The position numbers were made by a program, and so were the translations under genes. A stretch of DNA of 64,000 bases from the NCBI RefSeq assembly GCF_036924525.1, contig NZ_JAZHRU010000001.1, forward strand, positions 1,579,001 through 1,643,000. The letters are read 5' to 3'. Of this stretch, positions 11,314-14,837 are shown in pieces (the stretch's first letter is position 1; each line of letters starts with the position of its first letter). The stretch is from Bradyrhizobium sp. AZCC 1719. Lineage in GTDB: Bacteria > Pseudomonadota > Alphaproteobacteria > Rhizobiales > Xanthobacteraceae. Below the pieces are notes generated by a model, which saw only the letters and a program-made list of their open reading frames with translations, was not told where the DNA came from and did no database searches.

Positions 11314-12884
11314 TTTCTGCGGCGACCCACATCGCGCGGCTTGTCCGCGCCGCTTACGTGTTCGCGCGCGAGGGCGTGTTCGGCGTCGTCGATCCGAGCC
11401 TGGTGCCGGCGCCCGGGCAGCTCGCGCTGCGACTGGCGCGATTGATCGAACGACCCGGCGCCAAATCCGGCCCGCGACTATCCCGCGCGCTGACGCGGCT
11501 GGGACCGGCGTACCTCAAGCTCGGGCAGTTTCTGGCGACCCGCCCCGACGTGGTCGGGGTTGCCATGGCGCGCGACCTGGAAAGCCTGCAGGATCGGCTG
11601 CCGCCGTTTTCGCAAAGCGAAGCGGAAGCGGTGATCGCACTGTCGCTGGAACGCTCTGTGGCCAAGGCCTTTGTCAGCCTCGGCCCGGCGGTCGCCGCCG
11701 CGTCCATCGCGCAGGTGCATCGCGGCGAGATCGAGCGCAATGGCGTGCGCCAGCCGGTCGCCGTAAAGGTACTCCGGCCCAACGTCGCCTCGCGTTTTCG
11801 CCGCGACCTCTCCGACTTCTTCTTTGTCGCACACAACGCGGAGGCGCATTCGGCCGAAGCGCGGCGGCTGCGGCTGATCGAGGTCATCAACACGATGTCG
11901 CGCACGGTCGCGATGGAGATGGACCTGCGGCTCGAGGCTGCCGCTCTTTCCGAGATGGCGGAGAACACCCGCGACGATCCGGATTTCCGCGTGCCGGCGG
12001 TCGACTGGGACCGCACCACCCATAACGTGCTGACGATGGAGTGGATTGACGGCATCGCACTGAACGACCATGCGCGCCTCGAAGCAGCGCAAGTCGATTT
12101 GCCCGACCTTGGGCGCAAGGTGATCCAGAGCTTCCTGCGCCACGCGCTGCGCGACGGCTTCTTTCATGCCGATATGCATCCCGGCAATCTGTTTCTCGAC
12201 GACACCGGACGGCTTGTGGCGGTCGATTTCGGCATCATGGGCCGGCTCGGCGTGAAGGAGCGGCGTTTCCTCGCCGAAATTCTCTTGGGCTTCATCACGC
12301 GCGACTACCGCCGCGTTGCGGAAGTCCATTTCGAGGCCGGCTACGTGCCGGGGCATCATTCGGTGGAAAATTTCGCGCAAGCCATCCGCGCCATCGGCGA
12401 GCCGATCCACAACCGCACCGCCGAAGAAATCTCGATGGCGAAGCTGTTGACCCTGCTGCTCGAGGTCACCGGCCTGTTTGACATGCAGACCCGGCCCGAA
12501 CTGATCCTGCTGCAGAAGACCATGGTGGTGGTCGAAGGGGTAGCCCGGGGATTCGACCCCAAGCTCGATATCTGGAAGGTCGCCGATCCCGTGGTGCGCG
12601 AATGGATCGAGCGCAATCTCGGCCCGCTCGGGCGGGTTCAGGGGGCCATGACCGGCGCTGGCGAACTCGGCCGCGTGATGACGGGCCTGCCGGCGATCGC
12701 CTCGCGGGCGGTTGCCGTGATCGAGAACATGGAAAAGATGACCCGCGAAGGCCTGACGCTGTCGCCGGAGACTATTGCGGCCCTGGGCCGGGCCGAAGGC
12801 CGCAAGAGCCGCTGGCGCACGGTGGCGCTGTGGATCATCGCAGCGACCTTTATCGGAATTCTGTTTGCGATCCTGCAGTTGTGA
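11310..12884 (+). CDS. ubiB: UbiB-family kinase-like protein (ubiquinone biosynthesis)
   Basis: A 524-residue atypical kinase/ATPase needed for ubiquinone biosynthesis. Family features: the KxGQ motif ([14 protein letters not shown]), the alanine-rich loop [12 protein letters not shown], the lysine in VAVKVLRPN, the catalytic-loop-like [15 protein letters not shown] and VAVDFGIMG, and two C-terminal membrane helices, one near the end ([20 protein letters not shown]). The start is the GTG at 11310 ([18 protein letters not shown]), which overlaps the ubiE TGA; the longer frame from 11058 only reads through ubiE. Its stop lies 3 bp before the palindrome in front of coaBC. Confidence 0.94.
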
Positions 12885-12887
12885 TTG

Positions 12888-12914
12888 CAATGCTAGCATA
12901 GCGTGCTAGCATTG
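12888..12914. promoter_or_regulatory. Perfect inverted repeat with two TGCTAGCA octamers before coaBC (candidate RHH operator)
   Basis: CAATGCTAGCA (12888-12898) and TGCTAGCATTG (12904-12914) are perfect inverted repeats around TAGCG. Each contains the self-complementary octamer TGCTAGCA, spaced 13 bp centre to centre, which suits two adjacent ribbon-helix-helix dimers. The well-known FitA operator uses the related TGCTATCA/TGATAGCA pair. A possible promoter, TTGCAA (12885-12890) and TAGCAT (12907-12912), would be covered by the element. It lies 28 bp upstream of the coaBC start. Confidence 0.65.
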
Positions 12915-12942
12915 ACGGCATAGTTTTGCCGGAGGCCGTCCT

Positions 12943-14382
12943 ATGGCCAGCCTGACCATCCGAAAACTCGATGAAACCGTCAAAGCCTATCTGCGGCTCC
13001 GGTCGGCGGGAAACGGCCGCTCCGTCGAGGAGGAAGTCCGGGTCATCCTGGGAGAACTCGTCCAAGGGCGCCCCGAACTATCAGGCGCCAGCACGTCACC
13101 ACCATCCGCAGAGGCCAACGCACAGGCAGTGCCGGTCAGCGCCTCCAGCGAACGGAGTGTCACCCTGATCATCGGCGGCGGAATCGCCGCTTTCAAGTCG
13201 CTGGAGCTGATCCGGCGGCTGAAGGAGCGACACGTTCACGTCCGCTGCGTGCTGACCAAGGCAGCCCAGCAATTCGTCACGCCGCTTTCCGCCAGCGCGT
13301 TGTCGCATGAGCGCGTCTATACGGACCTGTTCAATCCCGAGAGCGAATTCGACGCCGGACACATCCGGCTGGCGCGCGAATGCGATCTGATCATCGTGGC
13401 GCCGGCGACCGCCGACCTGATGGCGAAGATGGCGCACGGCCATGCCGACGATCTCGCTACCGCCATCCTGCTGGCAGCCAACCGGCCAATCCTGCTGGCG
13501 CCTGCGATGAACCCCCTGATGTGGAACAACGCCGCCACCCGCCGCAACGTGATGCAGCTTCGCCGCGACGGCGTTCACATGATCGGCCCCAACGCCGGGG
13601 AAATGGCCGAGTCCAATGAGGCCGGCATCGGGCGGATGTCGGAGGCGGTCGAGATTGCCGCCGCCGCCGTCGACATCCTGCGCCCGCCGCGGCCGCGTCC
13701 GCTCGCGGGCAAGCGTGTGCTGATTACGGCAGGGCCGACGCATGAGGCGATCGATCCCGTGCGCTATATCGCCAACCGCTCGTCCGGCAAGCAGGGTTAT
13801 GCCATCGCCGCCGCGGCACAGGCCGCGGGCGCGGACGTCACGCTGGTGTCCGGTCCGGTCGACTTGCGCGATCCCCCCGGCGTCACGGTGATCCGGGTCG
13901 AATCGGCGCGTGACATGCTGCATCGGGTGGAAGCCGCCTTGCCGGCGGACATCGCGATCTTCGCCGCCGCCGTTGCCGACTGGCGCGTTGCCAATGAAGG
14001 CGAGCAGAAACTGAAAAAGACGTCCGCCGGCATGCCGCAGCTCGCACTGGTGGAAAATCCCGACATTCTGGCGACGATCTCGAAACTGAAGGAGAAGCGT
14101 CCGCCGCTGGTGATCGGCTTTGCCGCCGAGACCGAACATCTGATCGACAACGCAAAAGCCAAGATCGCGCGCAAGGGCTGCGACTGGATCGTCGCCAACG
14201 ACGTTTCGCCTTCAACCGGCGTGATGGGCGGCGACCGCAACACCGTTCACCTGCTGACGCGCGATGGCGAGGAGATCAACGTCAACAGCATTAAAGTGGA
14301 ATCTTGGCCGGTGATGACCAAGGAACAGGTCGCAGCCGAACTGGTGGCGAAGATTGCGCAGACCATGGAGAAGAATTCGTGA
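12943..14382 (+). CDS. coaBC: RHH antitoxin-like domain fused to CoaBC (PPC decarboxylase / PPC synthetase)
   Basis: CoaBC converts 4'-phosphopantothenate plus cysteine to 4'-phosphopantetheine for coenzyme A. Of 479 residues, CoaC spans about 71-250 ([13 protein letters not shown], active-site His140 in [12 protein letters not shown] ending at Asn190, substrate flap ending GIGRM at 228-232) and CoaB about 255-475 ([26 protein letters not shown]). Residues 1-42 are an extra ribbon-helix-helix module of FitA/VapB type ([20 protein letters not shown], then [12 protein letters not shown]), joined by a Ser/Ala/Pro linker 43-70. The Shine-Dalgarno GGAGG (12931) is 7 bases before this ATG, so the domain belongs to the protein. 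The ACGD cysteine of E. coli CoaC is replaced here ([11 protein letters not shown]), a form I believe is usual in alphaproteobacteria. The gene overlaps dut. Confidence 0.93.
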
Positions 14383-14837
14383 GCGTGACGGTGAAGGTCG
14401 ACGTCTGCCAATTGCCACATGGCGAAGGTCTCGCACTGCCGGCCTACCAGAGCGCCGATGCCGCCGGGCTTGATCTGCTGGCGGCGGTGCCTGCGGATAC
14501 GCCGCTGATCCTCCCGCCCGGAAAATTCGCGATGGTGCCGACCGCACTCACGATCGCGTTGCCTTCCGGATATGAGGCGCAGGTGCGGCCGCGCTCCGGC
14601 CTTGCCGCCAAACACGGCGTCACGGTGCTGAACTCGCCCGGCACGGTGGATGCGGACTACCGCGGCGAGATCAACGTGCTCCTGATCAACCACGGTGATA
14701 CGCCCTTTCCGATCAAGCGCGGCGAGCGCATCGCGCAGATGGTGATTGCGCCTGTGGTGCAGGCGAAATTGGTTCCCGTCACTTCGCTGGCGGCAACCGG
14801 CCGTGGCAGTGGCGGTTTTGGCTCGACCGGACGCTGA
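14379..14837 (+). CDS. dut: Deoxyuridine 5'-triphosphate nucleotidohydrolase
   Basis: Trimeric dUTPase of 152 residues that keeps uracil out of DNA and supplies dUMP for thymidylate. All five motifs are present: SADAAGLDL (1), [10 protein letters not shown] (2), [19 protein letters not shown] (3), GERIAQMVI (4) and the C-terminal arm [11 protein letters not shown] (5). The start is the GTG at 14379, which overlaps the coaBC TGA, so the two are translationally coupled; coaBC-dut adjacency is common in bacteria. Confidence 0.96.

Follow-up and report, generated by a model that had tools for sequence, protein, structure and literature searches.

A FitA-like ribbon-helix-helix domain on the coenzyme A enzyme CoaBC travels with a row of operator-like boxes and suggests an antitoxin-derived, self-regulating enzyme

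Introduction

Why does an enzyme of coenzyme A (CoA) synthesis begin with the DNA-binding domain of an antitoxin, directly behind a palindrome that looks like an operator? This question is raised by coaBC of Bradyrhizobium sp. AZCC 1719, in a window of 64,000 nucleotides (the whole stretch of DNA that was analysed; contig NZ_JAZHRU010000001.1, positions 1,579,001 to 1,643,000) taken from a genome of 7.2 Mb in one contig. A sequence-only reading of the window had proposed that an antitoxin gene was captured upstream of coaBC together with its operator. To our knowledge, the transcriptional control of bacterial CoA synthesis is little understood. We found no account of a CoaBC carrying a ribbon-helix-helix (RHH) domain, or of other DNA-binding CoaBC fusions, in the open-licence PMC literature; in the consulted portion of a paper on CoA synthesis in Bacillus subtilis, the helix-turn-helix is that of CymR (PMC11487621).

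Results

CoaBC carries an FitA-like RHH domain that is as constrained as the enzyme

The RHH module that the sequence-only reading had placed, in frame, at the N-terminus of CoaBC was recovered by Pfam as PF22513 (FitA-like_RHH; residues 2–39), scoring 52.1 bits against a curated cut-off of 27, and gonococcal FitA (2bsq/2h1o) is a weak PDB match of the first 51 residues (E 0.004). A genome-wide search returned this domain as the sole PF22513 match in the 7.2-Mb genome. Like CoaBC/Dfp (TIGR00521), the protein has complete CoaC and CoaB domains: TIGR00521 matches full-length over residues 70–471 (397.8 bits; curated cut-off 219.7), the Pfam enzyme domains are Flavoprotein and DFP, and the top PDB match of the core is 6tgv, a full-length CoaBC. 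It differs from CoaBC/Dfp in the extra N-terminal RHH domain and the linker that follows (Table 1). Proline dehydrogenase and P5C dehydrogenase domains were absent from CoaBC in a Pfam search with E up to 1.

The RHH domain is under purifying selection, with a constraint like that of the enzyme core. Across 57 loci of the genus, dN/dS was 0.152 for the RHH region (residues 2–42) and 0.138 for the core, compared to 0.547 for the linker, and the RHH region had zero indels. Arg7 of the domain was invariant in 34 aligned proteins.

Table 1. Features of the coaBC locus (positions in the window).
Feature	Position	Strand	Remarks
Box 1, TGATTGCA	12882..12889	+	Overlaps ubiB stop codon TGA (12882-12884)
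Possible promoter	12885..12912	+	-35 TTGCAA 12885-12890, 16-nt spacer, -10 TAGCAT 12907-12912; by eye; boxes overlap
Box 2, TGCTAGCA	12891..12898	+	9 bp after box 1
Box 3, TGCTAGCA	12904..12911	+	13 bp after box 2; holds most of possible -10 TAGCAT
Box 4, degenerate TGACGGCA	12913..12920	+	9 bp after box 3; by eye
Shine-Dalgarno GGAGG	12931..12935	+	7 nt before coaBC ATG
coaBC	12943-14382	+	479 aa plus stop
FitA-like RHH domain, CoaBC residues 2-39	12946..13059	+	PF22513, Pfam
Variable linker, CoaBC residues 43-70	13069..13152	+	dN/dS 0.547, with insertions and deletions
CoaC-CoaB enzyme core, residues 71-471	13153..14355	+	TIGR00521, PF02441, PF04127
dut (presumed dUTPase)	14379..14837	+	GTG start; overlaps coaBC stop by 4 nt (GTGA, 14379-14382)

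A row of 8-bp boxes lies over a possible promoter upstream of coaBC

The gap between the ubiB stop codon (12882–12884) and the coaBC ATG (12943) is 58 bp long and holds the perfect 11-bp inverted repeat that had been claimed for it: positions 12888–12898 pair exactly with 12904–12914, and a repeat of this length did not arise in any of 300 dinucleotide shuffles of the 62 bp upstream. The two TGCTAGCA octamers that had been pointed out are indeed present, at 12891 and 12904, within a longer row. Upon comparing the upstream sequences of relatives, we found that these octamers belong to a class of 8-bp boxes, TGMWWKCA, whose members include TGATTGCA, TGCAATCA, TGATAGCA, TGATATCA and TGCTAGCA; boxes start in the window at 12882, 12891, 12904 and, in degenerate form, 12913, where the sequence-only reading had described the repeat and two octamers only. 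Some relatives (L036, L056) have an exact box at the position of the degenerate fourth one. In 91 loci of the window's family (f1) whose CoaBC is fused to an RHH domain, boxes were spaced by 9 bp 81 times, by 13–14 bp 41 times and by 22–23 bp 65 times. The 8-bp boxes of MetJ each take one RHH dimer and, by analogy, each TGMWWKCA box may do the same.

The possible promoter that had been noted under the palindrome is weak: it stands as a possible -35/-10 pair placed by eye, and the promoter-prediction tool scored none in the window at its threshold; the support for it is comparative only and comes from the box-pair promoters at other loci described below. A leaderless transcript is suggested in five relatives (L076, L078, L079, L081, L084), where just 5–6 nt separate the end of a -10-like hexamer from the coaBC ATG. 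Downstream, coaBC overlaps a reading frame that we take, from its sequence, to be dut; because of this GTGA overlap, translational coupling of dut to coaBC is probable.

The locus lacks a toxin gene, as the sequence-only reading had stated: the 58-bp gap contains no toxin-like ORF, the RHH shares one continuous frame with CoaBC, and the overlap with dut leaves no space behind coaBC. Since PF22513 is a family of antitoxin domains, RHH-CoaBC could in principle have remained the antitoxin of a PIN toxin encoded elsewhere. We consider this scarcely credible, given that the gap is free of a toxin-like ORF and that the C-terminal tail seen in several free FitA proteins (ending in PPRFD and the like) is, by inspection, replaced in CoaBC by the weakly constrained linker.

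Scanning the 7.2-Mb genome for further TGCTAGCA pairs, as had been suggested, turned up no second pair; a control pattern read backwards likewise occurred once, so that this count proves nothing alone and the comparison among families decides. Pairs of TGMWWKCA boxes spaced by 9 bp occur at two places in the genome (reversed control: 0), and the second place is inside a long reading frame that is BamA-like by eye only. A multi-gene regulon with 9-bp-spaced box pairs was rejected on account of that position, for this spacing only.

Boxes accompany the RHH domain in two families

In the window's family we examined 391 genomes and then 54 genomes of 45 other genera. RHH-CoaBC was present in 27 of these genera (in g33 split by a frameshift), CoaBC lacked the domain in 17, and g17 was unclassifiable. 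At least two boxes were found within 120 bp upstream of 90 of 98 RHH-CoaBC loci (91 from f1, six from f24 and one from f16) compared to none of 104 other CoaBC loci (Fisher 1.4e-48, a value inflated by the relatedness of the loci). For this comparison the duplicates L157 and L185 were left out of the non-fused set, which includes the XRE-type fusions described below; L171 was counted as fused, and L001 was left out as the same gene as L002. When one locus per genus was taken, 24 of the 27 fused f1 genera other than the window's had at least two boxes. Not even a single box occurred within 120 bp upstream of the f1 loci without RHH (0/49), and the 91 fused f1 loci carried 2.63 boxes on average, compared to 0.11 in shuffles. 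Across the entire ubiB-coaBC gap, at least two boxes were present in 93 of 97 fused and in one of 106 non-fused loci (at least one box: 10/106). The sole non-fused locus with two boxes is L115, where they precede a free FitA antitoxin.

A second family, f24, gave the same pattern, with at least two boxes within 120 bp in 36 of 42 fused loci and in none of 28 others; this comparison re-counts three genomes (L318, L319 and L324 are the genes of L166, L168 and L171), and its non-fused set includes L381. By hand count, at least 36 of the matches among 199 f24 genomes are fused, and further RHH loci were found later; in each family, order and class sample, the fraction of genomes with a fusion is a minimum estimate. 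On a tree, five RHH-CoaBCs of f24 cluster with four RHH-less CoaBCs of the same family (100/99), apart from f1, and a fifth RHH-less one (L180) clusters with f16. Where the descent of CoaBC is concerned, f24 therefore serves as a separate replicate. In an order sample of 397 genomes, RHH fusions beyond f1 appeared, among the matches listed, in f24 and in one genome of f16; in a class sample of 289 genomes, 221 of them with CoaBC, the window's own was, among the matches listed, the only one to begin at the RHH domain. The fusion is widespread, which the sequence-only reading had not seen. The domain is not essential to CoaBC, as many lineages do without it.

The co-occurrence that the sequence-only reading had anticipated is thus seen in two families, with exceptions on the fused side, where 8 of 98 loci and, in f24, 6 of 42 fall short of two exact boxes in 120 bp; boxes without the domain, which it had named as counter-evidence, were not found in this interval in either comparison (0/104 and 0/28). 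Over the entire gap, the fused exceptions are L075 with no exact box and L052, L067 and L169 with one each. The fusion of Rhodopseudomonas palustris (L270) has look-alikes only and no exact box in 500 bp. In L058, L070, L071 and L090 the boxes are retained, yet inserted sequence separates them from coaBC; by eye, the insert between boxes and start codon is repeat-like in these four loci and in L007. We ruled out a chance palindrome on the strength of the shuffles (0/300) and of the co-occurrence of boxes and RHH in f1 and f24.

One might suppose that the RHH domain is merely an oligomerisation or folding appendage left by a fusion, its DNA binding lost. Many relatives have a CoaBC without the domain, and CoaBC elsewhere is oligomeric without it (excerpt of PMC7794376). 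However, boxes are kept where the domain is present and absent where it is not, and Arg7 is invariant in the 34 proteins, so we regard an appendage as very improbable.

Free FitA antitoxins have the same boxes at the same promoter position

Scanning named genomes with the RHH domain gave at least 556 relatives, and we analyzed the best 80 of these, among which the closest named relatives are Bradyrhizobium. These 80 comprise 52 RHH-CoaBC fusions and 28 other loci; in 23 of the 28, a PIN-like start follows a short RHH frame. Two or more exact boxes lay within 90 bp in 43 of the 52 fusions and 10 of the 28 free loci, and four of the 28 had no box. The nine fusions with fewer than two include one with displaced boxes (L218) and one at a contig end (L233). 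One of the 28, from an Afipia MAG (L232), is a CoaBC locus in which a 53-aa RHH frame stops before the core, possibly through a frameshift or a split gene.

Free FitA antitoxins of other phyla have the same boxes in the same position of the promoter. Among 56 distinct box pairs of the type TTGATTGC-N-YGCAATCR, the motif TANNNT follows the -35-like hexamer by exactly 17 nt in 22, compared to 0–2 at each of the spacers 13–16 and 18–20 and 6 at spacer 12; a second peak at spacer 21 (20/56) arises because the third box of Bradyrhizobium contains TANNNT. Spacer 17 was found in 10 of 14 pairs labelled as free, or 10 of 15 when L115 is included (our own count). From the shared boxes and this promoter spacing, it seems that the box pair, the promoter and the RHH domain belong together as an old cassette of this antitoxin family.

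Binding at the boxes might instead mainly block or shape read-through from ubiB, or activate rather than repress. In the window, box 1 and the ubiB stop codon share bases, and in L318, L319 and L348 (f24) a box ends one base before the coaBC start as placed, both of which would suit such a role. Nevertheless, in 22 of the 56 pairs the boxes fill the spacer between the -35-like and -10-like hexamers, the classical place for repression of initiation, and we hold the read-through or activator role to be unlikely.

FitA-PIN modules occupy the ubiB-coaBC gap in relatives

FitA-PIN modules are found between ubiB and coaBC itself, in f1 at L115 (g22) and at L108, L133 and L136 (g56), and in f24 at L180, L325, L328 and L377. 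L201 (f35) has a gap module whose toxin, at 20.8 bits, falls just below the Pfam cut-off, and the gap of L330 (f24) probably houses a FitA-PIN pair as well. L095 (g22) retains the antitoxin RHH and has a toxin reduced to its two ends; in L184 (f16), a PIN toxin in the gap is preceded by an ORF without a Pfam RHH. Exact boxes precede some of the 11 gap antitoxins: two or more in L115 and L330, one in L133, L201, L328 and L377, and none in L095, L108, L136, L180 and L325. The clean TGATTGCA-A-TGCAATCA pair occurs at L115 only. Since the clean pair is mostly missing, most of the present gap modules are not plausible donors.

As judged from these sequences, the proposal that the DNA-binding domain of an antitoxin was captured together with its operator is strongly supported: it agrees with the co-occurrence of domain and boxes, with the boxes of free FitA antitoxins and with the modules in the gap, whereas no particular module is supported as the donor. 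The RHH label changes four times on one tree and nine times on another, with at least three changes forced on each; with their poor resolution at the base, these trees do not settle the number and order of RHH gains and losses. A viral source was also considered and rejected: six stretches of viral contigs matched the pattern, and none encodes a relative.

Other ORFs in the gap include HicA with a HicB-like ORF just under the cut-off (L099), HigB (L185), DUF4258 (L130), a possible addiction-module antidote below the cut-off (L101) and ORFs that are acetyltransferase-like by eye (L104, L109, L129). The ubiB-coaBC gap seems to be a hotspot for toxin-antitoxin-like ORFs.

CoaBC is fused to other DNA-binding domains in further lineages

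In family f32, genus g157, CoaBC carries an XRE-type HTH_3 domain in place of the RHH (39 bits, cut-off 23; Pfam run on L186 only). The match starts at residue 1 in seven of eight g157 genomes, the eighth having no CoaBC match, and also in one g142 genome and a g404 fragment; matches in g78, g152 and g405 begin at residue 70 or later, and one g78 fragment is silent. The XRE-type CoaBC loci of f32 are L186–L190, L292, L294, L295 and L315. A TTACAT-ATGTAA motif stands just before the start codon in five of these nine, exact in L186, L187 and L190 and with one mismatch in L189 and L315; it is not whole in L188, L292, L294 and L295. A different HTH_3 (29 bits) begins the CoaBC of L162 (f16), right before whose start lies a perfect 11-bp inverted repeat. 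Two GGATATATCC palindromes are seen directly upstream of that start. The N-termini of L172 and L381 are HTH-like by eye, had no Pfam match and were not counted as fusions; in L381, a 7-bp inverted repeat lies a short way upstream of the start.

When the repeats of 12 XRE-type or HTH-like loci were compared with shuffles, L162 was clear (0/300), L189, L381 and L186 were marginal (p 0.04–0.05), and the remaining eight were no better than shuffles. An operator for these fusions is partly supported by their upstream sequences.

We lean slightly toward the ubiB-coaBC junction of Hyphomicrobiales being a landing site for toxin-antitoxin modules that has repeatedly, and convergently, supplied CoaBC with DNA-binding domains, each capture being self-regulating. 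The captures would be of RHH in f1, f24 and one f16 genome, and of XRE-type HTH in f32 and a different genome of f16. Our confidence is lowered by the fact that most present gap modules lack the clean box pair.

Discussion

RHH-CoaBC is real, neither a product of chance nor an ordinary CoaBC, and its antitoxin origin appears readable from the DNA. That it regulates itself by binding DNA is, on the evidence of domain, boxes and their joint distribution, very probable.

We infer DNA binding, repression, the order of events and the role of the dodecamer as follows. RHH-CoaBC would be both an enzyme of CoA biosynthesis and an autogenous transcriptional regulator, whose N-terminal RHH dimers bind the row of 8-bp boxes overlapping the promoter upstream of coaBC-dut, so that transcription of both genes would fall as CoaBC accumulates. 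RHH, boxes and promoter may have arrived as one cassette, when a FitA-PIN module inserted between ubiB and coaBC, and deletion of the toxin would later have fused the antitoxin RHH to CoaBC; if such a deletion cut through a module resembling the one at L115, a fusion of the window's type would result. FitA binds operator DNA through its RHH domain, with the toxin tethering FitA dimers (PMC3920265, in the part consulted), and the CoaBC of mycobacteria forms a dodecamer that CoA thioesters inhibit (PMC7794376, in excerpt). Taken together, these two systems make it conceivable that a CoaBC particle clamps several boxes. The dodecamer would probably replace the toxin in this role by holding several RHH dimers together so that they bind strongly, and with as many as twelve RHH copies per particle it could clamp boxes across the promoter, repressing coaBC and dut.

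The closest parallel in logic is PutA, a flavoenzyme of metabolism that likewise has an RHH domain at its N-terminus and that represses its own genes; a PutA chimaera given an RHH domain gained DNA binding (excerpt of PMC5293562). RHH-CoaBC differs in enzyme and pathway and in that its RHH is FitA-like (PF22513) and, unlike in PutA, shares its boxes and promoter position with toxin-antitoxin modules. A self-regulating enzyme of PutA-like logic is our best reading of the sequences. With FitAB/VapBC, RHH-CoaBC has in common the RHH family, the 8-bp boxes and their placement in the promoter, and the FitA-FitB pair attaches to its own operator in multimeric form (PMC3920265, same part). In contrast to those systems, the gap has no PIN toxin, the RHH forms one protein with a housekeeping enzyme, and a toxin-binding tail is, by inspection only, not seen where the linker lies.

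Besides autoregulation, CoA thioesters, CTP or phosphopantothenate might switch the DNA binding of CoaBC and make it a CoA sensor. CoA and acyl-CoAs inhibit mycobacterial CoaBC in competition with CTP and phosphopantothenate (excerpt of PMC7794376), and PutA switches function with proline (excerpt of PMC5293562). On the other hand, we see no sign of coupling in the sequence, and the unconserved linker argues against a rigid allosteric link. A sensor is therefore a tentative addition to autoregulation, and on balance a doubtful one.

RHH-CoaBC would extend the RHH trigger enzymes of the PutA kind to a CoA enzyme with an antitoxin-derived RHH. It offers a specific, testable case of self-regulation by a CoA enzyme, in a large group of bacteria that live in soil or with plants. 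Stages of domestication are visible side by side, from a complete module beside the gene, through a module with a decayed toxin, to an antitoxin domain fused with its operator kept. If the junction is indeed a landing site, operators of CoaBC would be either inherited or new, and the conversion of selfish modules into regulators of housekeeping enzymes may be a general route. That CoaBC has been fused repeatedly, and to more than one kind of domain, suggests that its level is worth controlling; the fusions also provide natural replicates in which this can be studied.
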